Source: Natronorubrum tibetense GA33
Lineage (GTDB): Archaea > Halobacteriota > Halobacteria > Halobacteriales > Natrialbaceae
Direction of reading: 5' to 3'
Length of the DNA: 64,000 nucleotides
NCBI RefSeq assembly: GCF_000383975.1
Contig: NZ_KB913021.1
Location: 1 to 64,000 of the forward strand
The first letter of the stretch is position 1. Every line of letters begins with the position of its first letter. This document shows positions 6,270-58,503 of this stretch, piece by piece. The notes under the pieces are model-generated. The model saw nothing but the letters and a program-made list of their open reading frames with translations. It did not search any database and had not been told where the DNA came from. A program made the position numbers and the translations under genes.

Positions 6270-7694
6270 TCATCTGGCCGTCCAGAGAAGCACGATTGAG
6301 ATGAAAAGCGCGATCAGGGAGCTGAGAGTCGCAAGACGAAGTACGACCCTGACAGCGTCTGACCGTGCGGTCGCGGGCCGTAGGTCGCGTTGTCTGTGAT
6401 CACCGCGCCAGTGACGGATCGCGACCGTGACGATCAGCACGAATGCGGACACAGCCACCATCAAGCCCTGGGTGAGGCCACCGACGCCACTCACGGCATC
6501 CACCAAATACCTTCCCAGCGGTGCTGGATGGGCCGCGATGAGGTCTCTCACCGCAGCCCTCCCATGCAAGGCCGTACGCCGAATTACGTCGGCACCGGCG
6601 ACACCACCCACGACGCCGACGACTAGCCCGATAAACGCGGCGAGGACTGCAATACCAGCCTGACGGTAGCGCGCTCGGCTACTGTCGACGACCGTCAGGT
6701 TCGAGGACTCGGCGAGACGTTCAGCCAGGAGTTCTCGGAGGACGCTCTTACTGGTCTCGACGTCGATGGTGGGATCGTTGACCGTTTCACGGTATGCCAC
6801 ATTCAGGTCGTCGACCGCGTCGACCAGACGCCCACGGACGCGTTCCCGCTTGACGTGATCGAGCTCGTCGTCGATCCGATCTTGTGTCTCGGGGAGCGGC
6901 TTCACCCGACTGTCCGACGGGAGGTCGCCGTTCGGGTGGATGACGATATCCGTGTCCTCGACGGTGTCGACGCGGCCCGCTTTCGAGACGGCGATCGTCA
7001 CCGCCGAGTCCGCGAGCGCGGACACCAGAAACGCGAAGAATCGTGCTGCGTCGTACGTCGACTGAACAGTAAAGTCCAGCCCTGCGCCGTCCATGGACGA
7101 GGCAGTCACGTCCGTCACCGACTCGGTCGATCCCCCTCCGTCGGTGGCGTGGTCACCCGTGCGTTTGGGCGGAGCACTTGAATCTGCATCCCGATTCGGG
7201 GCGGCCTCCAGGTCGTCGTCGCTCAAGACGGACCGGTCCCGACCGACGATACCACCTCGCGAGCACTCAAGGCCGATGCCGCTAGTGAGGTCACTCAGCC
7301 AGCCGTCCCACGACTCCTCGCGGCCGCCGTCGACCAGCCGGCGGATGGCGTCGCATTCGGGCTCCGCGACGGGGAGCGGGTCAGCGCTGAGCCCGTCGAG
7401 GGCCCACCGCGAACTCGTCGCATTGTCGGGCGGAGCCTCCGCGACCGAAAACTCCGACTCGCTGCCCTCCTCCACTGCTGGCCTGACTGCCCCAAGGTCG
7501 ATTCCGTCAGCGAACGTGCACTCGACAGTCGCCTGTACCGGGTACCCGAGACGGCCCTCGAAATAACTGCAGACGACGTTGGCTCTCGTGTCCGCGTACA
7601 GCAGGACCACCCCTGGGTCGATGTAGTCCAGTTCGCCGGGGTCGTCGGCGAACATCTCATCGCCGTCGTTTCGGAAGACGCGCACGTCCGGCAT
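6270..7694 (-). CDS. Membrane protein, partner of the adjacent G-domain protein
   Basis: 474 aa, family not recognised. The soluble N-terminal part (about 1-340) starts MPDVRVFRNDGDE and includes an acidic low-complexity linker around residues 150-190. Three hydrophobic helices close the protein: one containing IAVLAAFIGLVVGVVG, one containing GLMVAVSAFVLIVTVAI, and one at the very end containing LSSLIALFISIVLLW. The C-terminus is followed by only a few residues. The gene starts one base after the stop of the membrane GTPase gene, so the two are translated from one message and likely act together at the cell membrane. Function is unknown. Confidence 0.8.
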   Translation of the reverse strand: MPDVRVFRNDGDEMFADDPGELDYIDPGVVLLYADTRANVVCSYFEGRLGYPVQATVECTFADGIDLGAVRPAVEEGSESEFSVAEAPPDNATSSRWALDGLSADPLPVAEPECDAIRRLVDGGREESWDGWLSDLTSGIGLECSRGGIVGRDRSVLSDDDLEAAPNRDADSSAPPKRTGDHATDGGGSTESVTDVTASSMDGAGLDFTVQSTYDAARFFAFLVSALADSAVTIAVSKAGRVDTVEDTDIVIHPNGDLPSDSRVKPLPETQDRIDDELDHVKRERVRGRLVDAVDDLNVAYRETVNDPTIDVETSKSVLRELLAERLAESSNLTVVDSSRARYRQAGIAVLAAFIGLVVGVVGGVAGADVIRRTALHGRAAVRDLIAAHPAPLGRYLVDAVSGVGGLTQGLMVAVSAFVLIVTVAIRHWRGDHRQRDLRPATARSDAVRVVLRLATLSSLIALFISIVLLWTAR

Positions 7695-7695
7695 C

Positions 7696-9282
7696 CTACG
7701 CGTCCCCCTTGATGCGCTGGAGTAGCGATTGGGCGCCGTTGACGTCGATCGGACGCTCCGGAACCGGCTCGCCTTCCGCCAGGGACGCGTCGTGGTCGAG
7801 GTCGTAGTAGACAGGGTAGACGCGGTCGACCTGGGCTTGGTTCACGAGCGCCCCCAGCTTCTCGCGGCCCTCGAGAGACTCGAGCAGGTGGTAGTTTACC
7901 CAGTCGAAGAACGGCAGCCGGGTGTCGACGGTCCGATACAGCTGATAGAGATAGTCCGCCTTCGTCACCACCAGCACGACTTCCTTCTCGTCGAGCATGC
8001 TCTGATCGAGGTGCCTGATCAGCTGCACGTACGTGTCGAGGTACGACGCGAGGTCGTCCTGCGTGTCGTAGTCGCCCTCGCCGTAGGGGACCTCGGGGAC
8101 AAGGCTCCCAGCGTCGACGATGACACACAGCGTGTCCGAGTGCACGATCTGCTTGGCCATCACACGCTGAATCTCGTCGGAGTCCAGCCCCTCGGCTTTC
8201 TCCGGAAGATCCGGTAGACCACGCACGGACTCGTAGGTGTAGACGAGCCACTGCAGGGAGAGCCGGGAGTCCGGGGCGAACGCCTTCACGTACTCGACCA
8301 AGTTCTCGTCGACGTACTCACCAGCGTAGTCGAGGACGTCGACCTGGATGTACTCCTTGAACAGTTCGCCGGCTCTGGTCCGGAACTGGTGGAGGTGGTA
8401 CTCGCCCTTCTCCGTCGGGCCGGTGTACCCGTCGCCGCCGAACCCGTCTTCGTCTTCACCGCCGCGCAGCGATCCAACGAGCGCGGAGAGGGGGCCCGAG
8501 GGGCTCAGGCGCGTGTTTCGTGCACTCTCATCGGCGGCGATGTTGAGTGCTGCCGCCAGCATGGTCTTGCCGGCCCGCTGGACGCCGACGACGAACACGT
8601 CACGCTGTGCCTTGTAACCTGTGAACAGGTAGGCACCCGTCACAAGGACGGACGCGGCGATGAAGTCAGTGAACAGGCCTTCACCGACGAATCTGACCTG
8701 ATTGATTGCAGCGACCTGCATGTGGCCGTCGACCAGCGCCTCCCCCGACGTGTACACCAGATGATGGTCGACGAAGCCGATAGTAACGATCCCCGCGACT
8801 ACCCAGAACAGAGCGGTCGTCACGGCCCGGAACTCGTAAGGCGGGTTATTGCTTCGAAGTCGGCGGCCGCCCGCGAGCAGGAAGGATGCCGCGAATCCGG
8901 CTGCGATCACGGGCGCGTTCTCGACCGGGTACAGCGGATACAGAACCCCGTTGGAACGGAACACCGTCACGGAGATAGCCGAGGCCACCGCTAACAGGAC
9001 GCCCTGGATCCGCTTGATGTCGTCTAACAGCAACAGCGCGACTAGCCCTGCGTACGCACCGAGCCCGAACAGCACGAACTCGCCGTGGCTGATGCCCGCG
9101 AGTTCTTCAAACGTGACGACCGCCGTCCGAATGAGGCCGTCGGACTGCCACGCCGCACTCACCATCCTCGTGACCGTCGGCGTCACCACTGCGATGATCG
9201 CCAGGTAGAACACGAGATCAACTTTCTCCCAAAACTCTGCGAGGCCCTTGTGGTCGGCCTCTGGTTCTTGTGGGTACTGCAT
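7696..9282 (-). CDS. Multi-pass membrane protein with C-terminal small-GTPase-like domain
   Basis: 528 aa. The N-terminal half holds about five or six hydrophobic helices (roughly 22-39, 70-87, 92-107, 123-138, 155-175 and 205-221). A P-loop domain follows: G1 GVQRAGKT at 233-240, G3-like DYAG at 318-321 and G4-like TKAD at 440-443, in the order and spacing of a Ras/Arf/SRPRB-type G domain with a large insertion of Gly and Asp after G1. It should bind GTP on the cytoplasmic face of the membrane. Known membrane-anchored GTPases act in vesicle formation, protein targeting or membrane shape; which applies here is unknown. A decayed copy of the N-terminal half lies at 29150-29640. Substitutions outside the G motifs mean catalytic activity is not certain. 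Confidence 0.85.
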   Translation of the reverse strand: MQYPQEPEADHKGLAEFWEKVDLVFYLAIIAVVTPTVTRMVSAAWQSDGLIRTAVVTFEELAGISHGEFVLFGLGAYAGLVALLLLDDIKRIQGVLLAVASAISVTVFRSNGVLYPLYPVENAPVIAAGFAASFLLAGGRRLRSNNPPYEFRAVTTALFWVVAGIVTIGFVDHHLVYTSGEALVDGHMQVAAINQVRFVGEGLFTDFIAASVLVTGAYLFTGYKAQRDVFVVGVQRAGKTMLAAALNIAADESARNTRLSPSGPLSALVGSLRGGEDEDGFGGDGYTGPTEKGEYHLHQFRTRAGELFKEYIQVDVLDYAGEYVDENLVEYVKAFAPDSRLSLQWLVYTYESVRGLPDLPEKAEGLDSDEIQRVMAKQIVHSDTLCVIVDAGSLVPEVPYGEGDYDTQDDLASYLDTYVQLIRHLDQSMLDEKEVVLVVTKADYLYQLYRTVDTRLPFFDWVNYHLLESLEGREKLGALVNQAQVDRVYPVYYDLDHDASLAEGEPVPERPIDVNGAQSLLQRIKGDA

Positions 9283-11075: not shown

Positions 11076-13613
11076 TTAAGATCTGCTGGCCGCTGCTGTG
11101 CGGAATTCTGTGAGACGGTCCACGACATCGAGTCGTAGCCTCGCACGAGACGGCGAGCGGGCGTGGTCCAGGAGGAAAGAACGCCAGGCCGCTGCTGGCT
11201 CGACCGTGGTCGGTGCAAGTATGGCGAGCGCGTGAAAGACTGTTTCGAGCGTTTCGTCCTGCCATTCGTCGATGATCCGACTGCTAGCCGCGGTATACCA
11301 GACCTGCGAGACACGCATCGAACCGATTTGCTGCAGCCTATCGACTACAGCTGGTTGTTTGTCTCGAACTTCGAGTATGTCCTGAGTGGTGACAAGGCGC
11401 TCCATAACGAGCGTGTTTAGTGCAGTTGCTGCTGCCGGCGCGGCACCCGTCGAGCGACCCCGAACGGACCTACCGACCCCAATTCGGACATCTGGTGGGC
11501 GCTCTACGAGCAGGATACCGAGGAGCTCCCAGAAGCAGGGGAGTGCAGCATCGGACGGGAACTTCCCGTTCCTTGTAAGTGCGTCGATGGCATGGACTGC
11601 AGCCGTGCGTTCGTCCAGCTGAGTGGAACGGCAACCGAACTCGATAGCCGGAACGAATTCACGCACCCAGTCCTGAGGGAATCGGTTTGCGGTTGCACAG
11701 GCAGCGAGCAGATCGAACGCCGCCCTCCTGAGTTCTGGTCGCGTACTCCTGACGCTCCCGGCAAGGGGCGTTATGAGCCGTTCTGTGTCGACCGAGAACC
11801 ATGCGCCGTCTCGGAGGAGCGGCGAGAGAGCGTCGAACGCTCTGGTCCGAGACTCCCCCTGGGTTTCAACCGCGGCTTTCTCGAGTGCGTTCACGACCGC
11901 CTGAATCTGCGCCATTTGATTTGATGCCTCGTCGACGAGAGCGGTGAGACACTCGGCGACGGCCTTCGGGGAGTACGTGTCCTCACCGTCGACAACCCGT
12001 TCAAGCGAAGCGAGCAAATGCCGGAGTAACAGGTCAGTATCCATCGTTGATTCGGCGAGCCCCTCGACCGCCTGCTGCAGATAGTGTCTCGCGAAACCGT
12101 TGAGGCCGTCCTCGCCCTTGATGATTTGCTCGACCAGCCCGACAACCGACTCTCTACACCTGGACACCGTGGCAGGTGATGTTGATTGCACGAGCGTCGC
12201 TAACGCTTCGGCGGTGACGTCGGTGTAGTGCGTCGACTCCGCCACCTCATTCAGCAGGGCAAATAGCTCTCGAAGTTGTGATGGGGGCATGTCGACAGCT
12301 GAAAGGAGGCCGTCGACAGCGACTGCGACCTTGATCGGTGCTCGGGTCTCGTGAGCAGTAACCGATTCAGAGAGGAGGTCGATAACGACCGGTACGTGCC
12401 GTGCGGTCAGACACTCACTCTTCACGACGTCGACAAGCAACTTCGCGACGTAGAACGCATCAGTATCGGGGTCGTTAGTCTCGAACGCATCGAGTTCGTC
12501 GAGAATCGTCGAGAGGTGTGCTGCAGTTAGTTGGTCATGCTCTAGAACTGCCTGATAGCATTCGAACACGCCACGTCGCGACATCTCCGTTGCGCTCGCA
12601 AGACCGAATTCAGGGGCCTCGAGAATTGTCTCGGAGACAGTGGAGGGCACGATACCTGCCTCGAGTAAGCCTTTCAATCCGTTGGCGACGACCCACTGCC
12701 AGCCTTCGTCCTTGTCGGAATTGCTATCGAGTAACGAGGAGACAACACCTTGGACGCGTTCTGTGGTGACGATACCCAGTGAATCCAGATCAGTCAGTAC
12801 CTCTGCGGCACCCTCTCGGATACGTGGGTCCGGACTCGACGAGAGGCGGTCGACAAGCAATGGAATGATCTCGTCTAGCGTGTCCAGCTCCGGTGCTTCC
12901 TCTGGGGAAGCCAGAACGTCAGTACAATAAATCAAGATCGCCCACGCGTAGAGTTGCGGATACTTGGAGTCAGCAGCCTCTGATACGACCGTCGATGCGG
13001 TATCTGTGGCTGGAAACGTCTCGGGTGTCTGTCGTGCGACGACAGCCAACAGTCGAATGATAGCCGACCCCGTAGGCGTGTTCTCCTCGGGGTCGATTTG
13101 ACTCCAGAGGTCGACCGCACGGGTAATCGTCTCACGTCGGATAGTCTTGGGCGTTCTGTTCGGAGCCTCCACAGACAGGGCGGAGAGACTGCGAATTCCA
13201 ATCTCGTCTACGTGTTGATGTGATATGGAGCCTTCCACGTTGACGCTGACTTCGAACGCCCGGACAAGTCTTCTCAGCGATGTTGAATCTGCGTCCTCTC
13301 GAATGAATCTACTCGTATCGAGCGCCGACAGTGCCTGGGTCGCTTCCAGTTGCAATTCGCGTACGACCGAATCCATTCCGAAAATGTCCGTCCCTGTGCT
13401 GGGGGAGAACGTTGCCGTTTCGATGAGAACGGACGTGAGTGACGGCACGAGGCTGGCAGCAGCTGTCGGGTCCTTCTCGTTGAGCTGGCGCGCCTCCGAA
13501 ACGGCATTCTTCGTTCTGAGTGCGGAGGAAGGCGTAGCACCTACTCCTGATGACACCGCTATTCGTTCGCGAATCTCCTCGATTCGGTCGTATTCTGACG
13601 TGGGTTCGGTCAT
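11076..13613 (-). CDS. Large HEAT/ARM-repeat protein
   Basis: 845 aa from the ATG at 13613 (MTEPTSEYDRI); an ATG 15 codons upstream is possible, but the MTEP start matches the paralogue at 42045-45041 (MTEPNDVG). The protein is almost entirely alpha-helical repeat with regularly spaced Leu, Ala and Asp and no catalytic motif, signal peptide or membrane segment. It is more diverged than the other HEAT genes here and lacks the clear RALGE core, so it belongs to an ARM/HEAT-like group by overall pattern rather than by a strong motif. It probably acts as a cytoplasmic scaffold. It lies downstream of the Cys-rich-tail protein gene in the same direction with a 262-bp gap. Confidence 0.75.
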   Translation of the reverse strand: MTEPTSEYDRIEEIRERIAVSSGVGATPSSALRTKNAVSEARQLNEKDPTAAASLVPSLTSVLIETATFSPSTGTDIFGMDSVVRELQLEATQALSALDTSRFIREDADSTSLRRLVRAFEVSVNVEGSISHQHVDEIGIRSLSALSVEAPNRTPKTIRRETITRAVDLWSQIDPEENTPTGSAIIRLLAVVARQTPETFPATDTASTVVSEAADSKYPQLYAWAILIYCTDVLASPEEAPELDTLDEIIPLLVDRLSSSPDPRIREGAAEVLTDLDSLGIVTTERVQGVVSSLLDSNSDKDEGWQWVVANGLKGLLEAGIVPSTVSETILEAPEFGLASATEMSRRGVFECYQAVLEHDQLTAAHLSTILDELDAFETNDPDTDAFYVAKLLVDVVKSECLTARHVPVVIDLLSESVTAHETRAPIKVAVAVDGLLSAVDMPPSQLRELFALLNEVAESTHYTDVTAEALATLVQSTSPATVSRCRESVVGLVEQIIKGEDGLNGFARHYLQQAVEGLAESTMDTDLLLRHLLASLERVVDGEDTYSPKAVAECLTALVDEASNQMAQIQAVVNALEKAAVETQGESRTRAFDALSPLLRDGAWFSVDTERLITPLAGSVRSTRPELRRAAFDLLAACATANRFPQDWVREFVPAIEFGCRSTQLDERTAAVHAIDALTRNGKFPSDAALPCFWELLGILLVERPPDVRIGVGRSVRGRSTGAAPAAATALNTLVMERLVTTQDILEVRDKQPAVVDRLQQIGSMRVSQVWYTAASSRIIDEWQDETLETVFHALAILAPTTVEPAAAWRSFLLDHARSPSRARLRLDVVDRLTEFRTAAASRS

Positions 13614-13875
13614 TTCGGAGTCTTCAACACTGGGTTCAAATGTACGAAACCCGTGCACAAGTATCTGAGGCGGCCCCTACGGAGATTGTATCGAGTAGCG
13701 GTGCACCGTACCGGTGACTTACCGTCGTTGGTGTCCAGAGCGTCAAGCACGCGTTACGACGAGTGTACCCCACTTGGTGGGTCGTCATAAACTCGATGAC
13801 AGTGACGGGGATTGTCGTTGCGCTTGAACCATTCGACGCGCCCTTCGAATTGTTGCCGTCACCTGCGAAACCACA

Positions 13876-15207
13876 TCAACGCTGGACCGATTTCAGGGCC
13901 TCGACGACCGTGAGTGCTCGACTCTGGACTATGTCGATCTCGTCTCGGAACGCACACGTATCGTCGCCGCAGCTGTTGGTCGAGAGTGCACATAGCGGGC
14001 ATTCCAGTGGCTGGTCCGGGCGGGGATTGTCAGAGGCACGGTCGAGGATGCTTGCAGTCAAGCGGTCGGTGACGAACGCGCGCTCCCAGACGGCGCCGTA
14101 GGACTCGCCGTCGTGGACCGAGTGGCTGGCGACGTATGGGTTGACGAGCCAGTTCGGGTCACCGCCGCGGCGCCGGTAGAGGACGGCGCCGAACCCACCG
14201 GCCTCATACGCTTGCGCGAACAGCCACGCTTGCCCGGTTGGGTACCCAACGTTTGACTGGTGCTCGCGAGCAGTTCGGTCGGATGGACACGCGCGATGCG
14301 GTTCGGCGAGCAACGGGAGGTCTGCGACGGCGGGCTGGGTCGCCCAGCTGTCAGCGGTCGTCTCCGGGGCGAGGTCACCATCTTCAGTGTCGCCGATGGC
14401 ACGACGTACCTCGGTGTGGAAGTCAGCGAGCGCTCGGTCCGCGCCCGCGACGGCATCCATGTCAGCGACAGCGTCGAGAACGCACCGGGCCCTGTCTTCG
14501 AAATCGCGCGTCGCAAGGATGCGGGGAGCGCTGGGCAGGCCATCCCTCGGATCAGTGGCGCCACGGACATCGACCGGGGGCTGCGCGAAGCCGTTGGTCG
14601 CGAGCGGCGGGTCGAGTGCGACGTCGATAGCGATCTCGAACGCGCCGAGGCCGTGGCGGTCGAGCAGGTCGCGGTAGTCCGCAGCTAGTGTCGCGAGCGA
14701 CCCACCGTGGCCTGCGCCGCGGCCGAGTGTGGCGATAGCGTCGCGAACGGCAGCTTCGTCGACGAAGGTGTTGTTGTCGATGTAGTTGTTCGCGTACCAG
14801 TTGACATATACCTCGTCTTCTGCAAGCCAGGTAAGGAACGCGTGTAGGCCGGCGCGTGTGACCGTGCCGAACTCCGCTTGGAGGTCCGTAAGTGCGCGGT
14901 CGTACCCGAGGAGTTGACGGGCGCCCTCCGCGAGCGGTTCGTCGTCGCCGACGACCTCGCGGGTCATGCGACAGAGTGCACGTTTGTGGATGCGGAACGC
15001 CGCCCCGGCCGCGGTGCACGACCGATATCCAGCGAACACGACGGGGAACTGGAAGACACCGACTGCCGACCCGAGTTCGTCCTGGACGCGCGGTGGGACG
15101 CTAAGCGTGTTCAATCCCGGGCTCACCTCGACGCGGGCGTCGGTGTCGGTACTCGCTCGTGGGAGCAGAATGCCATGCCGATCGTGGAACGGAAACTCGA
15201 AACTCAT
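13876..15207 (-). CDS. Unknown protein with Cys-rich C-terminal domain shared with 18347-20272
   Basis: 443 aa, family not recognised. The C-terminal part shares a clear pattern with the 641-aa protein at 18347-20272: GFGAVLYRR, then SYGAVWERAFV, then ECPLCALSTNSCGDDTCA (paralogue: SFGAVVFQR, SYQALWEHYFV, ECPLCAVIAEPCGGDACV). Four cysteines in C-P-L-C ... C-x3-C spacing suggest a zinc or metal site. The N-terminal half is not similar to the paralogue by eye and begins with a beta-rich region. The start overlaps the end of a small upstream frame (ATGA at 15204-15207), so translation is coupled. Confidence 0.8.
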   Translation of the reverse strand: MSFEFPFHDRHGILLPRASTDTDARVEVSPGLNTLSVPPRVQDELGSAVGVFQFPVVFAGYRSCTAAGAAFRIHKRALCRMTREVVGDDEPLAEGARQLLGYDRALTDLQAEFGTVTRAGLHAFLTWLAEDEVYVNWYANNYIDNNTFVDEAAVRDAIATLGRGAGHGGSLATLAADYRDLLDRHGLGAFEIAIDVALDPPLATNGFAQPPVDVRGATDPRDGLPSAPRILATRDFEDRARCVLDAVADMDAVAGADRALADFHTEVRRAIGDTEDGDLAPETTADSWATQPAVADLPLLAEPHRACPSDRTAREHQSNVGYPTGQAWLFAQAYEAGGFGAVLYRRRGGDPNWLVNPYVASHSVHDGESYGAVWERAFVTDRLTASILDRASDNPRPDQPLECPLCALSTNSCGDDTCAFRDEIDIVQSRALTVVEALKSVQR

Positions 15208-15338
15208 CGCGACTCCGGCCGCCGAGACGACGGCTCTGTCGATACCTTGTCGTGCGGCCTCTGGGGGGCGTCGTTGGTGACGTGACCGAACGGTGCATTC
15301 AAGAACCCGATCAGTCGTGGCAGGTCGATCCCTGTCAC
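15204..15338 (-). CDS. Small coupled ORF between two genes
   Basis: 44 aa from a GTG, starting TGIDLPRLIGFLNAPFG. Its start overlaps the stop of the upstream frame as GTGA, and its end overlaps the next start as ATGA, so it sits exactly in a coupled three-gene row. No domain is recognised. It may be a short real protein or the leftover of a longer one. Confidence 0.4.
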   Translation of the reverse strand: MTGIDLPRLIGFLNAPFGHVTNDAPQRPHDKVSTEPSSRRPESR

Positions 15339-15572
15339 GGTTCGGCCCCGGTCGGTGCGATGGTGTACGTCGCGGTCACGGTGACGCCCACTTCGATGAC
15401 ACCGACCTCGTGGTCGCGTGCCCCGTCTAAGAGCCCGTCGGTGGTCCGAGGCTCGAGCGTGTGCGTCGGCTGGCCGCTCGGCGTTGGCCTGTAGCTCGAA
15501 CGTGAGCCGGTAGGCCTCCGCGTCGACATGCGCCCGAGCGCAATCCGTCACTTCGATTGTCGGATTCGACAT
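15335..15572 (-). pseudogene. Frameshifted small gene, weakly SIMPL-like
   Basis: The first part (from ATG at 15572) reads IEVTDCARAHVDAEAYRLTF, a beta-strand pattern weakly like SIMPL (DUF541) domains, then continues ASDHRRAL. The matching second part lies in the next frame: LLDGARDHEVGVIEVGVTVT, up to a stop at 15335. Joining the two with a one-base shift near 15430 gives a coherent protein of about 78 aa. Either the gene is broken or the shift is programmed. The SIMPL resemblance is weak and should be treated as a guess. Confidence 0.5.
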
Positions 15573-15848: not shown

Positions 15849-16742
15849 TCACCCCGGGTTCGCATCAGCGAACGAGAACACGCCAGTGTCGGGATCGATG
15901 TCGACGATGCCAAGCCCGCGGAACCCGAGGTTCAGCATATGCGGCACGCCCCCGGCGCCGTCGCCGGTGTCGTACCCGAAGGCATGGGAGTGCCCACTGA
16001 TGGTCGCGTAGACATCGTGGGTTCTTGCGATGAGGGCAAGTGCGACGGAGCCGGTGTGGAGCCCCTCGCGGTCCGTTTCGCGCGTTCCCGTCGAGTGATG
16101 GCGGTCGAACGTCGTGTTGAACGGGGAGAGGTGCGAGATGAGGACGACGTTCGAACAGTCGCCGAGGAGGCCGGCGAGATGCTCGTACGTATTCTGGACA
16201 GCATCGACGCTCCGGTGAAATGTCTCGCGGTGCTCGGCCGCGATGCCGAGTTCGGCGGCGGCATCGCGAGCGCTCGCTCCGCTGGAGACGACGTCGAAAA
16301 GCGCGTTTTCAATAGCGTCGGCGGTCCGATCGGCCACGTACCGGCGTTCGCCCCGCGGCGCGGTCCGCGGATCCAAGGCTGGGAACGCTGTCTGGTCGAG
16401 CGCGGGTTCGAGCGACCGGCGTTCGCAGCCCCAGCCGACTACCGTGCCCCACTCGCACTCATGGACCGCATCGTGGCCGCTGGTCGCGTTCTCGAGGCCG
16501 TCGGCGACGCGCTCGGGCATCGGCGCGTGGTCGTGATTCCCCGGGACGTACATGACTGGGATATCCGGAATGAACCGCTCTACGAACCGCCGGGCGAGTG
16601 CTACGTCGTCCTCGCCGTCGCGATGCGTGAGGTCGCCTGCCACAAACACTGCATCGAGATCGTCCGGCACAGTCATCGCCTCGACGTCGTAGTCGATCGC
16701 AGCGGGCTTGAGGTGGAGATCGTTACAGACCAATACGCGCAT
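15849..16742 (-). CDS. Calcineurin-like metallophosphoesterase
   Basis: 297 aa from the ATG at 16742 (MRVLVCND); an upstream ATG seven codons earlier is less likely. The five metal-binding motifs of the family are in order: NDLH near residue 8, AGDLTH near 40, GNHDH near 75, SHLSP near 205 and GHSH near 250. It should hydrolyse a phosphomonoester or phosphodiester with a two-metal centre (Mn or Fe); the substrate is unknown. The gene is divergent from the coiled-coil gene at 16850, and the two starts are only 107 bp apart, so they probably share a regulatory region. Confidence 0.9.
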   Translation of the reverse strand: MRVLVCNDLHLKPAAIDYDVEAMTVPDDLDAVFVAGDLTHRDGEDDVALARRFVERFIPDIPVMYVPGNHDHAPMPERVADGLENATSGHDAVHECEWGTVVGWGCERRSLEPALDQTAFPALDPRTAPRGERRYVADRTADAIENALFDVVSSGASARDAAAELGIAAEHRETFHRSVDAVQNTYEHLAGLLGDCSNVVLISHLSPFNTTFDRHHSTGTRETDREGLHTGSVALALIARTHDVYATISGHSHAFGYDTGDGAGGVPHMLNLGFRGLGIVDIDPDTGVFSFADANPG

Positions 16743-16849
16743 GACTGACACCTGAGGGCGCACCCGCCTATAGCTGCGGGCGGTGTGTTACAAGTTCGGT
16801 ACCTCTCGGTCGCCGCTTATGATCGCTCGACGGGCTGAAACAGTTAGTG

Positions 16850-17566
16850 ATGCTCGTATCGATCCTCTCGAAGACAAAGGCGTGGATGCTGGACCACTCC
16901 GAAGAAACGGATACCCTCACAGAGCTCGACGAGATAGAGCTCCAGCGGCGAATCCACGAAGCAGAACGAAGGACAACCGAGTACCGGGAGCAGATCGAGT
17001 CGCTGCGGGAGCGCTACCGGTCAACCGTACAGCGAGCTGAGCGCGTTGAGGACAGTACGCTCGACATCGTTCGCACGGATCTGGCGGCCGTTTTCAATCG
17101 AACCGCGTTCGCGCGAGCAAAGTTAATCGAGGCCATGCGTGCGACACACGCCCTGCAGCGGCTCGCACTTGCCAAGCGCTCCGATATGTCGATATGTGGG
17201 GTCGATTTCGATCCGGACGCGTTCCCCACTGTCATCCACGACCCGGGCGACCCGGATCCATCGACGGAGGGGTTCGACCCGGTTCCAAACCTCGAACGGT
17301 TCGAGGGGCGGGGCCAGCGCGGACTGGGCGAAGTCGAAGCGAGAGTCGACAATGTGGTGACTGCCGCCCGGAGCGACGGACTAGTACCGACGCTCCCCGA
17401 ATTGTTCGAAACAGACACCGACGACGAACTCGACGGGTACGTCTACGGTCCGGGCAACGACGACGTTGACGAGGGCGAAGCGGATGCCAGCACTCAAGAT
17501 CCAGGACCCCCCGACGTCAACGCGGGCGATGACGACAATAGCGTCACTGATGGGGGGAGCAGTTGA
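16850..17566 (+). CDS. ESCRT-III/PspA-like coiled-coil protein, paralogue of 32640-33305
   Basis: 238 aa. The ATG at 16850 was preferred to a GTG one codon earlier because the paralogue starts the same way: MLVSILSKTKAW here, MLRRIISKTKRW there. Layout: a short amphipathic basic N-terminal helix, a long coiled coil (about residues 28-65), a second helix (about 75-110), a shorter helix after a spacer, and the shared motif VDxxxxAARxDGxVPTLxEL at about 166-185, followed by a disordered acidic tail. This hairpin-plus-tail plan is that of ESCRT-III and PspA/Vipp1 membrane-remodelling proteins, but there is no strong sequence match by eye, so the assignment is structural inference. It is flanked on both sides by metallophosphoesterase genes. 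Confidence 0.75.
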   Translation: MLVSILSKTKAWMLDHSEETDTLTELDEIELQRRIHEAERRTTEYREQIESLRERYRSTVQRAERVEDSTLDIVRTDLAAVFNRTAFARAKLIEAMRATHALQRLALAKRSDMSICGVDFDPDAFPTVIHDPGDPDPSTEGFDPVPNLERFEGRGQRGLGEVEARVDNVVTAARSDGLVPTLPELFETDTDDELDGYVYGPGNDDVDEGEADASTQDPGPPDVNAGDDDNSVTDGGSS

Positions 17567-17635
17567 GGAGTACGACAATACACGGCGTGTAGTCTTGCCC
17601 CGTGGTTTACTTACGATGTGGTTGACCGTGTGGGT

Positions 17636-28432: not shown

Positions 28433-28437
28433 TTCCG

Positions 28438-45660: not shown

Positions 45661-45752
45661 GCGAGGATTCTAGTGTACCTCCGCGAGATAGCGGGAGAAG
45701 ACGCCACGAGCGTCGTCCAACTGCGGCAATGAGGTGCTTCGACGGCGAGTCG

Positions 45753-48743
45753 ATGAGCGACGTCGCGGGCATCGCGTTCCCGGTCGACGGCGAGATCCTA
45801 ACGCTGGCCGAGACGCTCGACGAGGGTGCCTCCAGGTCGAGTTCGGTCGGTGCGCACCTCGACGCGGTGCGTGCCGCGGAAGCGCTACGGGAACGGGAAG
45901 TGGACGCGCCAACCAGCGTGCGAGCGATCGCGCCGACGCTCGAACGAGCACTCTGGGAGCCCGACGGTGCGAGTGGAGACGCGACCGCGAGCGACCTCTA
46001 CGTGTCGGGGCTACGAGAGCGCCGTCGCGAACTCATCACGGCAACGCTGGCGTCAATCACGGACCCGTCACTGGTCCAGGGCTATGAGGCGAGTTTGTAC
46101 TCGCTGCGGGGACTGGTCGCGGCGGTCGGGCGGACGCTGACCGCGACAAGCGCGGACGTCGTCCGCGAGCACTGTCTCAGGACGCTCGCCGCGCTCGGTC
46201 GGGTACGACCGGATGTCGTGCAAGAGACACTCGACGGCGACGCGGTCGCCATCGGCGTCGACTGGCTCCAGCGCCGCGAGACGCCCGAGCAATGGCAGGA
46301 GACCGTCGTCGCGGAACTGCTCGCGATCACCGCCCCAGCGCTGCCGTCGGTCTGGGACGACGCCTCGATTGCGACTGTGACTAAGCACTTGCTCGCGAGC
46401 GAATCGGCAACGACGCGAGCGCTCGCCCGAGCCGTGAGTCGAACGGCACCTGCAGGATTCGAAGGCGTCCTACCTGATGGTCCCGGGAAACAGCCGTTTG
46501 AGCCGCTCCGGCGGCTCGGTGAAGATTCCTCTCTCGGCGACCGGGAGGGGCGTCGGCTCGCTCGTGCGGTCGGACGATGCGTCGCGCTGGACCCCGACCT
46601 GACCGCAGACGCGCCCGCGGCGCTGGTGGAGCGCGTGCGACAGGCACCCAGAGCGGAGCTGGCACCGGCGGCGACCGCACTCGGCGAGGTCGTCGCAAAC
46701 ACGGTCGCGTCCAACGAGAGAACGGGAGCGGCACTCGTCGAACGGGTGGAAGGCGCCTCGGGTGACGCCCGGCACCGTCGCGTGCGTCTCCTGGGCGAAG
46801 TCGCGGTGGCCTGCCCTGAACGAGTCGACCCGGTCTCGCGGCGGTTCCGCGAGCGGGTCGCCGCGGCGAGTCCGCCCGACGCGGCTGCGGTGCGTGGCGT
46901 TGGCGAGTGCGTCGTCGCTGCGGCCGAAGACGGTCGTCCGCTCGCGGTACTTCGTCGGCAGGTACGGGCGGGGACCGGTCGGGAGCGCGAGCGGGCCGCG
47001 GTCGCGCTCGGCGAGTGGGTCGCACACGTCCCCGACGTCGTCGACGCCGAAGTGGATTCGCAGGCGGCTGTCGTCAGGTCGACGAGCGGCGGCGATCGTG
47101 AGGCGGTCGCGGCAGTCCTCGGCATGTATGTCGTCGCGGTCGCGGCCGGGGGCGTGAAGGCGGGGACGACCGTGGTCGGTTCGGACGCGTCGACCCGGGC
47201 GACTCGGGTGCGCGGCGAACGCGTTCTGGCAGGGGACGTCGACGGGTTCAACCTGACGCGAGAGACCCGGGTCGGTCTCCGCGAGAACCGTGGGGCAACC
47301 AGGCGCTTCGCGACGCAAGCGCTCGGTTTGGCACTTCAGTACCGGGAATCGACGGGGAGCGCGCCCCTCGTGGCGATCCGAGCGGCCGTGACGTCGAGCG
47401 CGCTTGACCAACGCCCGCACCGTCTCAGGCTCCTTGGCGAGTGGGTCGCTGCCACCGGAACGAGCGAGGGCCGGGTCACGGCACTCATCCAGCGCGTTCG
47501 CAAGACGACCAGCACGGGCCGCGAGCAGGCCGCTCGTGCCCTCGGCGTAGCGATGACCGTACGCGCGGGGTTCGGGGCGCGAGACGCCGCCGCGATCGGT
47601 ACCGCCGTCGCCAGGCTGGCGGTCCACGATGAGGTCGTGGGAGCGACGCGTCGTGCGGTCTGGCGGGCGAACCCGGAGGCTGGAGACGCGTCGACGACGC
47701 GCCTGCCGGCAGGGGTGCCGGCGGTCGACCGCGACTGGCCGCTCCGTGCGCTCGGCGAGGGTGCAGCGGTCGCGGGGGATTCGGTTCCGACTGGCTGCGG
47801 GTCGCTCGCTGCGACGGTGGTGGAATCCGATGGCTGGGACAGTCAGAGCGCGGCGAGGGCACTCGGCGCAGCACTCGTCCTGGACGAGTACCCGGCGCCG
47901 GACGTCCTCGCGTGGGTGACAACCGGTTTCGGCGGGACACCGGAAAGCAGAGGCGCGATAACGTACACGCTCGGCGAGGTCGCCGCGGCGCACCCCGAGT
48001 CTTTCCCGGGTGTTCCGGATACGCTTGTGGCAAGCGTCCGCGAGGCATCGGGCACTGTGCGGACGACGACGGCACGCGCGCTCGGCGAGTACGTTAACAT
48101 GCCCGCGCTCGCCGAGCCGTCCTCGGTGAATGCGCTCCAGAACGCAGCGAGTGACGCCAGCGGCGACGCCCGGGCACACTTAACGCGAGCTCTCGGCGAG
48201 GTCCTCGTTGATGTCCCCGACCCAGACATCGAGGCGCCTGCGCTCCTCGTCGACGCCGTCGCAGACGCGACCGGCCAGGACCGGCGAGCGCTCGCACGCC
48301 TCCTCGGCGAACTTGCCGTCGCCGACGACCTGGGAAACGTCCTTGACCGAGTCGTGCCCGCCGAGACCGATGCGTCGGTGTTCGAGCGCGCACGCCGCAG
48401 TCGCATGACCCAGGGACTCACCGCCGTCGATGCAGTTGGCGTCGAGGACCTCCTTGCGGCCCTCTCCGTCGGCGAGACGCACGACGATGCGTTCGTATCG
48501 TCCATCGATGTGGACACGACGCCCGTCGAGACGCTCCTGGAATCACCGCCACCGATACGCGACCCACTCCTCGACGCGCTCATGACCGCACTCGGACGAC
48601 GCGCAACGAGAGCTCCGGGCAACCCCGGCACTCGATTCGACGCCTGGCTGCGCGAATCGACCGACGCAGAAGCGCCCGCTCGACTCCACGCGGTGGCCGC
48701 ACGCAGCGCGGTCGACACGACCGCGGCAAACATGGACCGCTAA
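45753..48743 (+). CDS. Large HEAT-repeat protein (about 996 aa)
   Basis: 996 aa from the ATG at 45753 (MSDVAGIAFPVDG); an ATG at 45729 would add eight residues. The repeat motif is very clear: ATALGEVVA, VRLLGEVAVA, RGVGECVVAA, AVALGEWVAHVP, LRLLGEWVAA, ARALGVAMTV, TYTLGEVAAA, TRALGEYVN and TRALGEVLVDVP, each about 40-45 residues apart. Many repeats contain basic residues before the LGE core. No catalytic motif. The regularity of the LGE units makes this the type example of the HEAT family in the window. Confidence 0.88.
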   Translation: MSDVAGIAFPVDGEILTLAETLDEGASRSSSVGAHLDAVRAAEALREREVDAPTSVRAIAPTLERALWEPDGASGDATASDLYVSGLRERRRELITATLASITDPSLVQGYEASLYSLRGLVAAVGRTLTATSADVVREHCLRTLAALGRVRPDVVQETLDGDAVAIGVDWLQRRETPEQWQETVVAELLAITAPALPSVWDDASIATVTKHLLASESATTRALARAVSRTAPAGFEGVLPDGPGKQPFEPLRRLGEDSSLGDREGRRLARAVGRCVALDPDLTADAPAALVERVRQAPRAELAPAATALGEVVANTVASNERTGAALVERVEGASGDARHRRVRLLGEVAVACPERVDPVSRRFRERVAAASPPDAAAVRGVGECVVAAAEDGRPLAVLRRQVRAGTGRERERAAVALGEWVAHVPDVVDAEVDSQAAVVRSTSGGDREAVAAVLGMYVVAVAAGGVKAGTTVVGSDASTRATRVRGERVLAGDVDGFNLTRETRVGLRENRGATRRFATQALGLALQYRESTGSAPLVAIRAAVTSSALDQRPHRLRLLGEWVAATGTSEGRVTALIQRVRKTTSTGREQAARALGVAMTVRAGFGARDAAAIGTAVARLAVHDEVVGATRRAVWRANPEAGDASTTRLPAGVPAVDRDWPLRALGEGAAVAGDSVPTGCGSLAATVVESDGWDSQSAARALGAALVLDEYPAPDVLAWVTTGFGGTPESRGAITYTLGEVAAAHPESFPGVPDTLVASVREASGTVRTTTARALGEYVNMPALAEPSSVNALQNAASDASGDARAHLTRALGEVLVDVPDPDIEAPALLVDAVADATGQDRRALARLLGELAVADDLGNVLDRVVPAETDASVFERARRSRMTQGLTAVDAVGVEDLLAALSVGETHDDAFVSSIDVDTTPVETLLESPPPIRDPLLDALMTALGRRATRAPGNPGTRFDAWLRESTDAEAPARLHAVAARSAVDTTAANMDR

Positions 48744-48881: not shown

Positions 48882-49185
48882 ATGTCCGATGTAACCGAGC
48901 GAGCGACGGAGGTCCGCGACGCCGTCGCCTCGTCCGGAGTCGACGTTGTGTTTCGGGCTGGACGAGTTGTCTGGCAGCGCCAAGGTTGGTCACCGCCGGC
49001 GTGGTGACAACGGCCCCACCGGCTATACGGTCGACGCTCGTCGCCGCGTTCCGGGAAGGGAGGCAGGATTCGGTGGGGCCGTGCTGACAACACTGGTCGA
49101 CGCGAGCGCGCTGCTACCGGCCGACCTTGCCCAGCGATTAGCGCACGGAGCGCCCGAGATAGCAGCGACACGCGTGCACTCGTGA
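48882..49185 (+). pseudogene. Possible frameshifted relic
   Basis: Three frames in order give MSDVTERATEVRDAVASSGV up to about 49007, then TTAPPAIRSTLVAAFREGRQ to about 49070, then VLTTLVDASALLPADLAQRL to a TGA at 49185. The pieces have good codon use and could be one small protein with two shifts. No intact homologue is in the window. The remainder of 48744-49525 shows nothing else. Confidence 0.35.
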
Positions 49186-49525
49186 CTGAAGTCACCCCAT
49201 GCCTGGCACGCTCAACCTGTTCAAGACGGTGACAGCATGGGTACTTGCCGCCTTCCAGCGGTACGCGCCAGCCCTCGGCGCATTCCTCTGAGCGGACGCC
49301 CTGGATGTCAAAGCTCGTTTGACTACCATCCGGATACTCAAGGTCTCAACGCAACGGCTACGACCCCTCGAGCGGGGACTAACCACGTCGAACCGAGAGG
49401 TTCCACGAGCGTCCCGCCAGAGCGAGCCTGCCGAGATCCCACTCACCCCCGTATCTGTAATAAAGCCGGAGTTCAGGTGGGCTGTCAACGACCGATCGGT
49501 GAAGGTGGCACCACTTGGTTGAGAT

Positions 49526-50008
49526 ATGGCAGCGAGCCCAGACGACGACGGCGAGGACAGCACTGAACTCGAGAACGCGGCGGACGAATACGACGACTCC
49601 GACGGCTTCGACGTCGAGGCGCTTCTTGAAGCGCAGTTCGAAGCCATCGACGAAGACGGCCAGGAGCTTACGGAACTGATCAAGATCGCTCACTTCACCC
49701 TCGGTGTTGACAGCGAAACGAGCAACGCGATCCAGCAGACGATCCGGGCGGTCATAAAGGAACTCATGGGCGAGCACGAGGAAGTCACGATTGCGGAGGT
49801 CGCGGATGCGCTGTGGTCCGAGCTCCTCGTCATCAACAGCAATCTCCGTGAGGACCCCGATGACAGCGAGGGAGTCACCGACGCCGAGCGCAACGGTGAT
49901 GAGCAAGCGAAACTCGACGACATCGCGGCCATGGGCGTCAGCGGTGACGGCGGTGACGACGCCGAGGTTAGCGAGTCCAGCGCGAGCCACGACCCGGCGT
50001 TCCAGTAA
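49526..50008 (+). CDS. Acidic hypothetical protein
   Basis: 160 aa, starting MAASPDDDGEDSTELENAAD. Very acidic ends flank a helical middle (VEALLEAQFEAIDED, ELTELIKIAHFTLGVDSET, IQQTIRAVIKELMGEHEE, IAEVADALWSELLVINSN). It lies between two HEAT genes. No known domain; a small adaptor is possible. Confidence 0.7.
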   Translation: MAASPDDDGEDSTELENAADEYDDSDGFDVEALLEAQFEAIDEDGQELTELIKIAHFTLGVDSETSNAIQQTIRAVIKELMGEHEEVTIAEVADALWSELLVINSNLREDPDDSEGVTDAERNGDEQAKLDDIAAMGVSGDGGDDAEVSESSASHDPAFQ

Positions 50009-50165: not shown

Positions 50166-50509
50166 CTATACCATCCCTGACTTCGACGCCGCAGAGACGG
50201 AAGCGGCGGCGTCAACGCTCCCGTGGCTGCGCCGCAGTGTCCAGAGGGCGACGAGCGCGTCGAATACGGTCTCGGACCGTGCCTTCGCGAGGCGACCCAG
50301 TGCGTACACGGTCCATCGCAGTGACCTGCGTGGACAGCGTCGCGGACGACGGCACCGAGCGTCTCGAGAACCGATGCCAGCGGCCGGTTGGCTGTCTCGT
50401 AGCTCGCCGCGAACCTCGGGCTGTTCATCTCGACCACCGTATCGCGTGCAGCCGTGAGTGTCCGGCCGACGACGCCCGCTAACAACAGGAACTTGGCGTC
50501 ACCGTCCAC
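50166..50509 (-). pseudogene. Frameshifted small helical gene
   Basis: On the - strand the frame starting MDGDAKFLLLAGVVGRTLTA at 50509 continues to about VVRDAVHAGH, then the coherent remainder is in another frame: YALGRLAKARSETVFDALVA up to a TAG at 50166. Joined, the product is about 113 aa and helical, with an ALGRLA unit that resembles the HEAT core. It is broken by one shift near 50310. It lies 300 bp upstream of an intact HEAT gene on the other strand. The rest of 50009-50810 has nothing I can support. Confidence 0.5.
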
Positions 50510-50810
50510 GTCAAGAGGCGCGCTGGACTACATCACTGGTTCAAGTGGCTCGGGAGAGCGCTGTTGAACGGCAGTTCGAGCGCTGGCTCTTAATCAGTGG
50601 AAAGCCACGAGTAGACGCGACTAGCGACCATCCCCAAATGTCGTCGAATCCGAAATAGGACGAGCGCAATCGACGTGGTCGAACGCGCTGGCACACACGT
50701 CCTGTAGGTCGGCAAGAGTGGTTATACGCTGTCGGAGCGATGGTGTTCTCGATGTGGATTCGTTCGAGGTGCCGGCACGACACGTTCCGTTTTGAGCGGG
50801 GTGACCAGTA

Positions 50811-53048
50811 GTGTCCAGCCACACAAATTTTCCCGTGAGCCCCGAGGCGGCTCATGAGGTAGTTCGAGCGAAGCTAGACGACTCGGAGCCACCCCGGCCG
50901 GACGACCCGCGGCTCGCCGCCTGCGCGTGTCTTCGGAGCGGGGACCCCGAATACCGGGCCGACGGTGCGGCATTGCTGGCCGCAGTCGCCGACGAAAATG
51001 CGCGAGCCGTCCAGCCAACGCTCTACGACCTCGCGGCCGTACTCGACGCGCCAGACCGACGGACGCGAGTCCATGCGATGGCCGCGTTCCAGGTCGCCGC
51101 CAGCGCGATCCCGGACACCGCAGTCGACCTGCTCGATGCCGTCGTCCCGAGGCTCACGGATGTTGATCCGCTCGTCCGGGAGGCCGCCGCGTCCACCGTC
51201 GCCTGGCTCGCCGAAGCAGTCAGGGACGACACCCGTGGCGATTTTCCCGACGGGACGAGAGCAACATTCCAGCCCGCAGTCGGTGCGCTTCTTGCGGTCC
51301 TCGTAGCCGATACTGGCGACGAGCGCTTCGAGTGGACGGCAGCGTTCGCCGTGACGCACCCGACGCGGACGTTCTGGGGAGCCGTCGACGCGGGTGCGTC
51401 CCGCCGCTCCGCGTGTCATTGGCAGGCCACCTTCGCAGTGGCGATGCTTGCGGACTGGTTCCCCGAGCAGGTCGCGACACACGACACCCAGCTCGCCACC
51501 CTCGCCGAGTCTGGCGCGCGAGCGGAGACCCGATGGTACGCTATCGACGCCCTTGCTCGCGCCGGCGCCGACGACACGCTCCGTACGGTCCGCGACCGCG
51601 CCCTCGCCGCCCTCGAAAAGCCCGACAGAGCGGCGTCGAGCGTCGAAACGCTCTACCACCTGACGACCGAGCGACCGGCGCTCTTGGTCCCCGCTGCACC
51701 CTCCCTCGCGAACGTGCTAGACGACCTCGACCCAGAACCGACAACGCTCGCCGTCGTCACGATACTACACGCCGCCGTCCACGACCCCGACCCCGTCGCG
51801 GTCGACACCCTCGTTCGCGAGTGGCTGCGGACGGCGGACGAAGACGACTCGCGGACGAAGCGCGTGAATGTCGACTTAGTCGCCTCGGTCGCCACGGCTC
51901 ACCCCGAACAAGTGCTCCCCGCAGTCGGCCACGCGCTCGACATCCCGATCGCGGACCACGCTCTGGCGGCCGACGCCGAGCGCCCGACGCAATCCACTCA
52001 GTCCGGCGAGGGTTGGGACACAGATAGGGCGTGGCGAGTCCTCCTCGAAATCGCGTCTCGCGACCGCGAACTGGTGTGGGAGGTCGTCAAGGAGGACCGG
52101 CTGCTGGCGCGACTCGACCAGCAGGCCGATCGCGGTGCTCGCATCCGCAAACTGTATGCCACCACTGTCCCGACGCCACCGCCCGAATCCGTGATCGAGG
52201 ACCTATTCAAGCTCCTTATCGCAGACACGACGGGTGCGTACGCCGCGCTGTCGACTCTGCAGGACCGGGCACCAGATACAGTCCTGACCGCGGCAGTTGA
52301 CGCCGTCGACGGCGCGTCCGCGCCGGTCGCGGACGTCCTCTCCGTGCTCGTCGCCCTCAGCGACGACGACCCAGCCGCCCTCGAACCGCTTCAGGAGACG
52401 CTCTGGTCGTGGAACAACACCATCCGGCCCGGCGACGACCGCTGGAGCGACCTCGTGACGATCCTCGGTCGGATTGCCGTCGCGACCGACGACCGCGAGC
52501 GCCTCTCCCGGATGCTCCACCTCGAGCACGCCGTCTACTGCAAGCGATTCCTTCGGACCGCGGTCGCGCCAATGGTGATCCAGACGGCGCCCAACAAGGC
52601 CGTGCCAGCGCTTCTGGAGCACCTCGAACACCGGGATGCGTCGCTTCGAAAGCAGGTCGTTCGCCTGTACGAGACGCGTCCAGATGGCTACGGCGGTTGG
52701 GCACCGACCATCCAAGGCGCTGTGCTCGCCAGAATGACCGACTCTGACCCAGGTGTTCGGTCCGCAACCGTCAAGACCCTCGGGACGTGGCTCGAATACG
52801 TCACTGAGACGTCCGGTGATGCACGCGACGGCTGGGTATCGCCGGTGCGGTCGGCACTGTTCGATGGGCTCGACGATGAGGACTGGCGCGTTCGAGCACA
52901 CGCCGCTCGCGCCCTCGGTGCGGACATGGACGCCGAGACCCAAGCAACCTTCGAGACGCGTCTGGCGCAAGAAGGCAACCAGACGGTCCGGTTCGAGATA
53001 CAGCGCGTTCTGTCCCGACACTCCCGAGAGGCGCGGACCGATCGGTGA
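50811..53048 (+). CDS. HEAT-repeat protein (745 aa)
   Basis: 745 aa from a GTG at 50811. Repeats typical of PBS-lyase/HEAT proteins are visible: RADGAALLAAVADE, TRVHAMAAFQVAASAIP, VREAAASTVAWLAEAV and, near the end, RVRAHAARALGADM and VRSATVKTLGTWLEY. No catalytic or membrane features. It ends 18 bp before the end of the convergent ADP-ribosylglycohydrolase gene. No second start was needed, as the upstream sequence has no better ATG. Confidence 0.85.
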   Translation: MSSHTNFPVSPEAAHEVVRAKLDDSEPPRPDDPRLAACACLRSGDPEYRADGAALLAAVADENARAVQPTLYDLAAVLDAPDRRTRVHAMAAFQVAASAIPDTAVDLLDAVVPRLTDVDPLVREAAASTVAWLAEAVRDDTRGDFPDGTRATFQPAVGALLAVLVADTGDERFEWTAAFAVTHPTRTFWGAVDAGASRRSACHWQATFAVAMLADWFPEQVATHDTQLATLAESGARAETRWYAIDALARAGADDTLRTVRDRALAALEKPDRAASSVETLYHLTTERPALLVPAAPSLANVLDDLDPEPTTLAVVTILHAAVHDPDPVAVDTLVREWLRTADEDDSRTKRVNVDLVASVATAHPEQVLPAVGHALDIPIADHALAADAERPTQSTQSGEGWDTDRAWRVLLEIASRDRELVWEVVKEDRLLARLDQQADRGARIRKLYATTVPTPPPESVIEDLFKLLIADTTGAYAALSTLQDRAPDTVLTAAVDAVDGASAPVADVLSVLVALSDDDPAALEPLQETLWSWNNTIRPGDDRWSDLVTILGRIAVATDDRERLSRMLHLEHAVYCKRFLRTAVAPMVIQTAPNKAVPALLEHLEHRDASLRKQVVRLYETRPDGYGGWAPTIQGAVLARMTDSDPGVRSATVKTLGTWLEYVTETSGDARDGWVSPVRSALFDGLDDEDWRVRAHAARALGADMDAETQATFETRLAQEGNQTVRFEIQRVLSRHSREARTDR

Positions 53049-58494: not shown

Positions 58495-58503
58495 CTCTGG
58501 CAT

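Follow-up and report, generated by a model that had tools for sequence, protein, structure and literature searches.

The endosomal sorting complex required for transport (ESCRT) cuts and shapes cell membranes, and eukaryotic membrane trafficking is rooted in archaeal ESCRT. What this machinery does in euryarchaea is, to our knowledge, almost unknown. The described systems nearest to the locus reported here are archaeal ESCRT systems of the 'Main' and Halo_FHA clades, known in euryarchaea including haloarchaea, in which the gene for a MIT-AAA Vps4 is immediately preceded by one for an ESCRT-III-type coil (Makarova et al. 2024, PMC10936438), and a cassette type with a membrane GTPase, the tubulin-like protein FtsZl1 and a membrane protein that was described in 2010 (Makarova and Koonin, PMC2875224). 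We here compare with them a 64,000-nt stretch of Natronorubrum tibetense GA33 (hereafter the window), which comprises bases 1-64000 of contig C5 (166,050 bases) in a 4.93-Mb haloarchaeal genome; the ParA gene at the start of this contig and its size point to a plasmid. A sequence-only reading of the window had proposed a membrane-remodelling and scaffold system of about 47 kb, unlike any named archaeal system, with vesicle formation, an internal compartment or antivirus defence as candidate roles. Remodelling is a well-supported candidate role for the core of this block, in view of its Vps4-like ATPase, its ESCRT-III-like coils, its FtsZl1-type GTPase module and their linkage elsewhere. The claim of novelty was too strong, as the core is related to archaeal ESCRT and the GTPase pair to the FtsZl1 system. 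The combination of an ESCRT-type core with an FtsZl1-type GTPase pair appears to be undescribed; we found no account of it in a literature search that had most subscription papers and all supplements outside its reach.

The core consists of the Vps4-like ATPase, the coil, phosphoesterase 1, a chaperone-fold protein and the GTPase with its partner (Table 1), and is probably an archaeal ESCRT-III/Vps4 machinery in a variant form carried by a plasmid. Both the Vps4 and the order of the genes mark the system as a relative of ESCRT. With the Main and Halo_FHA systems it shares the MIT-AAA ATPase and the coil gene directly upstream, and HEAT repeats are named in the ESCRT locus legend of the 2024 paper. 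In contrast to these systems the block lies on a plasmid and encodes a membrane GTPase with its partner, phosphoesterases, numerous HEAT proteins and a chaperone-fold protein, and it carries no arCOG09748-like, arCOG08177-like, kinase or FHA gene. Candidate profiles for arCOG09748 and arCOG08177, assigned by locus context and description and not from arCOG sequences, gave no match on the whole 166-kb plasmid or at the related loci of Halomicrobium urmianum (L003) and Halobaculum rubrum (L004), but do match the loci L006, L008, L104, L105 and L108; no FHA match was found among the scanned window proteins. The main text of the 2024 survey links no GTPase, phosphoesterase or plasmid to haloarchaeal ESCRT loci (PMC10936438). 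Halo_adaptin, likewise a haloarchaeal ESCRT-type locus, combines an ATPase that bears VAT-N in place of MIT with proteins of the Ig and beta-propeller types (Makarova et al. 2024, PMC10936438), whereas the N-terminus of the block ATPase is MIT-type and the scanned proteins yielded no Ig or propeller match; its CetZ-like tubulin-superfamily protein is a precedent for ESCRT alongside a tubulin relative. CdvABC also combines ESCRT-III and Vps4, but the block is plasmid-borne, no CdvA match was obtained among the scanned proteins and the host retains canonical FtsZ genes.

The ATPase was correctly singled out in the sequence-only reading as Vps4-like. Its profile alignment with yeast Vps4 (query 22-412 to 5uie 15-434) covers the MIT domain, and by this alignment the N-terminus qualifies as a MIT domain; Pfam MIT was not seen among the best 25 of 29 matches. 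The NCBIfam CdvC model matches residues 22-302 with 139.1 bits, compared with a cut-off of 650, and by that score the protein does not count as a Cdv cell-division ATPase equivalog. The family occurs in 11 of the 392 genomes of the order. A Cdc48-like unfoldase, with the coils as generic coiled-coil adaptors and a role in protein quality control or plasmid-specific proteolysis instead of membrane remodelling, seems distinctly improbable to us. Although Cdc48/VCP chains top the PDB profile list, each of them has two AAA domains, which inflates the score, while the ATPase carries a single AAA module; moreover the Cdc48 alignments start near query 106, after the MIT region, and it is to Vps4 MIT and CdvC, not to Cdc48, that the N-terminal region can be aligned. 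Of the NCBIfam models CDC48 gives a higher score than CdvC (165.8 and 139.1 bits, both far under cut-off), and M48 peptidases are encoded close to two of the loci, yet the position of the coil gene, which immediately precedes the ATPase gene as it does at archaeal ESCRT loci, and the linkage to a membrane GTPase argue for the ESCRT assignment.

Both coils that had been called ESCRT-like are present and are homologous to each other (E 1.7e-11). Compared with coils of other archaeal Vps4 loci, the coil 2 profile reached 96.8% in hhalign (E 3e-10, 154 columns), and matching coils precede Vps4 at further haloarchaeal loci and at loci of Thermococcus and Chloroflexota; several of these loci carry proteins that, judged by locus context, are presumably the arCOG09748 and arCOG08177 proteins of the Main clade. 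The coil profile also finds the coils of genomes G361 and G257 at E ~2e-11, the G361 locus carrying arCOG09748/08177-like genes. Within the order this coil type is found in 5 of 392 genomes at E ≤1e-6. The coil tail contains a conserved VPTLEEL motif (VPTLEELADDTF), and the coil of a related Vps4 locus matches Pfam Snf7 weakly, with 20.1 bits, under the cut-off. A Foldseek search with the coil returned nothing at E 0.001 or better, PDB sequences gave generic coiled coils only, and no match was found on the viral contigs searched. Two plasmids, one of Chloroflexota (L009:1-4655) and one of Thermococcus (L008:6655-10891), each encode two coils, a Vps4-like ATPase and a kinase; the former is a bacterial ESCRT-type set, and the 2024 survey reports none from bacteria (Makarova, PMC10936438).

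Of the two proteins previously read as a membrane GTPase pair, one is a GTPase with P-loop, DxxGE and TKAD motifs and the Walker B glutamate, but the second is a multi-helix membrane protein without a P-loop. This partner matches the gene following the GTPase in H. urmianum at 38%, with conserved gene order. Relatives of the GTPase were identified at 60%, 28% and 24%, and by profile search the family is present in 50 of the 392 genomes. In 17 of 19 other loci examined the GTPase sits between FtsZl1 and a membrane protein; family and gene order in the window, a membrane GTPase followed by its membrane partner gene, are the same as in these cassettes (Makarova and Koonin 2010, PMC2875224). What differs is FtsZl1 itself, which is absent from the window genome, H. 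urmianum and H. rubrum, the ESCRT-III/Vps4-like pair being linked instead; only short hits of ~27 bits were obtained there, the size given by canonical FtsZ-type genes, in comparison with 1631 and 1445 bits in the controls. The ESCRT-linked GTPases form one clade (support 99/94), and the GTPase-ESCRT link may therefore have arisen once. The sole Pfam match of the GTPase is DO-GTPase2 (15.1 bits, cut-off 27), which together with the Walker B glutamate and the membrane segments recalls the GTPase-centric or MoxR-vWA conflict systems of Kaur et al. (2020, PMC7159879). The Vps4-like ATPase and the GTPase would then be switches and the HEAT proteins scaffolds, and HEAT and vWA/MoxR genes do occur near other Vps4 plasmid loci; since the match is under cut-off, the closest GTPase context is FtsZl1 and the scanned block proteins have no GAP1, GASH or vWA match and no MoxR over cut-off, we consider such a system unlikely. 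A dynamin was rejected as a candidate: Dynamin_N (PF00350) has no match in the window genome, and 12 of 14 control genomes were positive. Scans of genome-contig and viral-contig collections with the GTPase alignment found nothing despite the presence of the family on named plasmids, so that either the pattern method or the contents of the collections missed it.

Outside the window the core is linked on two further haloarchaeal plasmids, those of H. urmianum and H. rubrum, at deep divergence (28-60% GTPase identity, 34-50% coil identity). The distance from the GTPase to the ESCRT genes is 3.8 kb in H. urmianum, where GTPase and coil-Vps4 are adjacent and divergent, 6.6 kb in H. rubrum and 27 kb in the window, and for each of these linkages the chance expectation is 0.2-1% per genome. 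A closer relative is LUM.66, a metagenome-assembled Haloferacaceae archaeon (~80% complete), which was found by the coil alone in a search across three families. Its two coil contigs carry ~18 block genes with 50-85% identity. One contig extends from coil 2 to the methyltransferase as in the window, with order and strand mostly the same, and the other contains CxxC-tail and phosphoesterase genes, the helicase/chaperone-fold/Vps4 set in rearranged form and a fragment resembling ParA. The families of the block thus occur together in other genomes, as a joint system would demand. Compared with LUM.66 all genes analyzed are under purifying selection, strongest for Vps4 (ratio of nonsynonymous to synonymous divergence ~0.11; coil 2 ~0.23) and weakest for coil 1 and the HEAT proteins, and the block genes are therefore not products of chance. 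A second AAA ATPase, a ~40% match to Vps4 in the AAA domain and absent from the window, stands beside the LUM.66 Vps4 (L124:3040-4164, minus strand).

The block therefore consists of two parts, a deeply linked core and an outer set shared at shallow divergence. A single 47-kb system, as initially proposed, finds partial support, in the linkage of the core and less so in the outer genes (CxxC-tail, HEAT, helicase-nuclease, ADP-ribosylglycohydrolase and lanthipeptide genes), which are common only at shallow divergence with one genome. It is about an even bet that only the small core forms a system and that the remainder amounts to independent modules travelling together as a conflict or defence island of the plasmid, namely the helicase-nuclease, the CxxC-tail/phosphoesterase 2 pair, the lanthipeptide cluster and the ADP-ribosylglycohydrolase; this would be compatible with an ESCRT-type core. 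H. urmianum and H. rubrum have just the core in common with the block, and the stretch read from Natribaculum luteum has the phosphoesterase 2/CxxC-tail module but no ESCRT genes. Relatives of the helicase-nuclease are widespread on plasmids, and at the one archaeal neighbourhood inspected no ESCRT genes were seen. Synonymous divergence to LUM.66 is just 0.55-1.05, so the synteny may reflect recent shared descent; on the other hand, LUM.66 contig C260 retains the CxxC-tail protein 1, HEAT, chaperone-fold, helicase-nuclease and Vps4 families in rearranged order, which argues for a functional tie.

Several results weigh against reading the core as an ESCRT variant. The window coils have no match to Snf7 (PF03357) and no profile similarity to haloarchaeal PspA (hhalign 1.3%), and the predicted helical hairpin is a weak model (pLDDT, the model's per-residue confidence score, 66). 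This low-confidence model superposes on CdvB2 filament subunits with 2.6-2.7 A over 116-117 residues (Z 8.3-8.4) and reaches Z 8.3 with IST1, but BAR domains and designed bundles score higher (Z 9-11). Because of the missing Snf7 and PspA matches and the low model confidence, the coils are labelled ESCRT-III-like and are not filed as ESCRT-III. The tree does not resolve the Vps4 proteins of the window, H. urmianum and H. rubrum as one clade, and at the genome level the association of the GTPase is modest (Fisher p 0.04 with Vps4, 0.016 with the coil). Finally, the GTPase pair is absent from the LUM.66 coil contigs, an absence that is not firm in an assembly ~80% complete, and the LUM.66 GTPase sits in an FtsZl1 cassette; as the coil contigs lack it, the pair may be optional.

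For the core as a plasmid-borne ESCRT variant we infer the following course of action. An amphipathic N-terminal helix would let the coil proteins form polymers on the inner side of the membrane, and the ATPase, a Vps4 homologue, would bind the coil tail (VPTLEEL) with its MIT domain and strip or remodel the polymer with ATP. The GTPase and its membrane partner could anchor and switch the machine, with the ESCRT polymer in place of FtsZl1; the observed linkage, the common clade and the lack of FtsZl1 are consistent with such a functional swap. Phosphoesterases and the chaperone-fold protein would regulate the machine, and the HEAT proteins may serve as variable cargo or scaffold adaptors. The machine would probably serve to bud, seal or repair the cell membrane amid microbial conflict, a setting suggested by the lanthipeptide cluster and the anti-phage-like helicase-nuclease on the same island. 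More speculative, and in our view doubtful, is the wider idea that one GTPase module serves two unrelated filament engines, FtsZl1 in most carrier haloarchaea and ESCRT-III/Vps4 on these plasmids, the plasmid version being a machine specialised for budding or repair that uses HEAT adaptors and is tied to lanthipeptide and defence functions.

The linkage suggests that two filament-forming engines could be exchangeable on one membrane module, and it can be tested whether ESCRT and tubulin-like polymers substitute for each other there. Equally testable is whether archaeal ESCRT may act in conflict, vesicle formation or membrane repair and not in division, as the hosts keep FtsZ-type genes. Haloarchaea that can be cultured and that carry a compact ESCRT version on a plasmid, linked to a membrane GTPase, offer a tractable experimental system for such work. 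HEAT proteins beside Vps4 are of interest with regard to how coat adaptors arose. A 1570-aa HEAT protein adjoining the LUM.66 Vps4 (L127:1919-6631) scores 63.9 bits with the Pfam model of the adaptin N-terminus (Adaptin_N), above its cut-off.

Table 1. Features of the block in window coordinates; percentages refer to matches with the genome named.
Feature	Position	Strand	Evidence and relatives
Membrane partner of GTPase	6270..7694	-	several predicted transmembrane helices (hydropathy), no P-loop
Membrane GTPase, FtsZl1-associated / DO-GTPase-like	7696..9282	-	motifs GVQRAGKT, DVLDYAGE, TKAD
HEAT/ARM-type protein	11076..13658	-	HEAT matches below threshold
CxxC-tail protein 1	13876..15207	-	tail CPLCALSTNSCGDDTC; 68% homologue in LUM.66
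Broken SIMPL (DUF541) gene	15338..15572	-	out of frame
Calcineurin-type phosphoesterase 1 (core)	15849..16763	-	PF00149 43.6 bits; homologues at H. urmianum, H. rubrum and LUM.66 loci
ESCRT-III-like coil 1	16850..17566	+	homologous to coil 2; ~50% homologue in LUM.66
Calcineurin-type phosphoesterase 2	17618..18316	+	PF12850 85.1 bits; 80% LUM.66, 56% Natribaculum
CxxC-tail protein 2	18347..20272	-	71% LUM.66, 33% Natribaculum
Small acidic protein	20269..20847	-	operon with CxxC-tail protein 2; weakly similar to duplicated gene upstream of Natribaculum homologue
Protein without family match	20889..21992	-	open reading frame (ORF); same operon direction as CxxC-tail protein 2
HEAT-repeat protein, 1359 aa	23270..27349	+	PF02985 50.2 bits, over cut-off
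Small protein	28435..28929	+	homologue of gene just after GTPase partner in H. urmianum (tblastn E 2e-16); paralogue E 2e-19
GTPase relic, N-terminal part	29318..29647	-	internal stop; 62% to intact GTPase
Long protein, possibly helical scaffold	29743..32508	-	no Pfam match; no plasmid relative
ESCRT-III-like coil 2	32640..33305	+	directly upstream of Vps4-like gene; 81% LUM.66
Vps4-like MIT-AAA ATPase	33332..34600	+	PF00004 134.9 bits; single AAA module
Relic of 923-aa ORF	34989..35441	+	43% over 164 aa; intact between LUM.66 Vps4 and helicase
DUF4011 helicase-nuclease, anti-phage-like	35871..40748	-	PADLOC PDC-S37 1154 bits; 73-74% in both LUM.66 contigs
Type-III-secretion-chaperone-fold protein (core)	40979..41560	+	homologues in H. 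urmianum, H. rubrum and both LUM.66 contigs
HEAT-type protein	42045..45041	-	HEAT_2 22.9 bits, under cut-off; 55-58% LUM.66
HEAT-type protein	45729..48743	+	homologous to 42045..45041 protein (blastp E 4e-5); 54% LUM.66
Relic of 950-aa LUM.66 block gene	48986..49342	+	41% over 120 aa
Small acidic protein	49526..50008	+	58% LUM.66, same position and strand
Relic of 1137-aa LUM.66 block gene	50321..50494	-	48% over 58 aa; LUM.66 gene similar to HEAT-type proteins
HEAT-repeat protein, 745 aa	50811..53048	+	PF13646 42.1 and PF02985 40.1 bits, over cut-off; 59% LUM.66
ADP-ribosylglycohydrolase	53067..53972	-	PF03747 263.9 bits; syntenic in LUM.66, 76%
LanM-type class II lanthionine synthetase	54101..57403	-	PF13575 285.2 and PF05147 142 bits; 65% LUM.66
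Lanthipeptide precursor	57370..57606	-	core ends YTFTCICTCKCTLSC; 66% LUM.66, last 15 residues 14/15 identical
Methyltransferase beside lanthipeptide genes	57763..58689	-	PF13649 60.2 bits; 59% LUM.66

The block is a GC-rich island of ~6.2-58.7 kb: the G+C content is 0.54 at the start of the window, 0.59-0.69 from ~4-6 to 60 kb and 0.48-0.61 over the remaining 100 kb of the contig; for the block itself the values are 0.60-0.68. The extent of 6270-53048 given by the sequence-only reading marked a real block but was too short, as G+C content and synteny with LUM.66 shift its end from 53.0 kb to ~58689; in the added part Pfam recognizes the ADP-ribosylglycohydrolase, the LanM-type lanthionine synthetase and the methyltransferase. 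Much of the earlier inventory was confirmed. Both phosphoesterases exceed the Pfam cut-off, the two Cys-rich-tail proteins are paralogues with a related C-terminal CPLCA...CG.D.C tail that is retained in homologues, and relics do lie inside the block, among them the GTPase fragment with its stop, two HEAT relics and the broken SIMPL gene, of which LUM.66 has an intact 207-aa homologue (PF04402, 49 bits). Of the seven HEAT/ARM scaffolds two are over the Pfam cut-off, two under it and one is assigned by homology, but the protein at 29743-32508 has no Pfam support and the number seven could not be confirmed. For three HEAT/scaffold proteins and CxxC-tail protein 1 no plasmid relatives were found, and among 205 genomes searched CxxC-tail protein 2 is present in its own genome only. 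The chaperone-fold assignment comes from a model (pLDDT 79) for which type III secretion chaperones rank top at a middling Z of 7.6, with aminotransferase domains close behind.

A PADLOC scan of the block recovered the helicase-nuclease only, besides weaker AAA hits (IetA and others) on the Vps4-like ATPase that are due to the shared AAA domain. The NCBIfam model of anti-phage ProA matches the helicase-nuclease with 1092 bits, under its cut-off of 1500, and a literature search for PDC-S37/ProA together with DUF4011 found none. Rfam and tRNA scans across the window were likewise negative. The class II lanthipeptide set (54101-58689, minus strand) is conserved in LUM.66, and no exporter gene was recognised for it within the block; at the H. 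urmianum locus a YcaO/SagB peptide-modification cluster (L003 33402-36550) takes its place. On the Natribaculum luteum plasmid a ThiF-family E1 lies ~10 kb from the CxxC-tail module (L109:26403-29984), together with two proteins that, read by eye, may be E2-like and ubiquitin-like, respectively. M48-family metalloprotease genes stand beside the GTPase/ESCRT core in H. urmianum (L003:24646-30735) and H. rubrum (L004:10159-24609) and also occur at L109, and none was seen in the window. A W/Y-type class I tRNA synthetase is encoded within the island on the plasmid (22047-23204, plus strand), and a lysS gene is found near the H. rubrum locus (L004 15134-16597). A broken gene at 9886-10698 (minus strand), longer in two other haloarchaeal loci, is probably a transposase relic, and at the edge of the window positions 63621-63998 show a 65% match to a TnpB-family gene of the H. 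urmianum plasmid.

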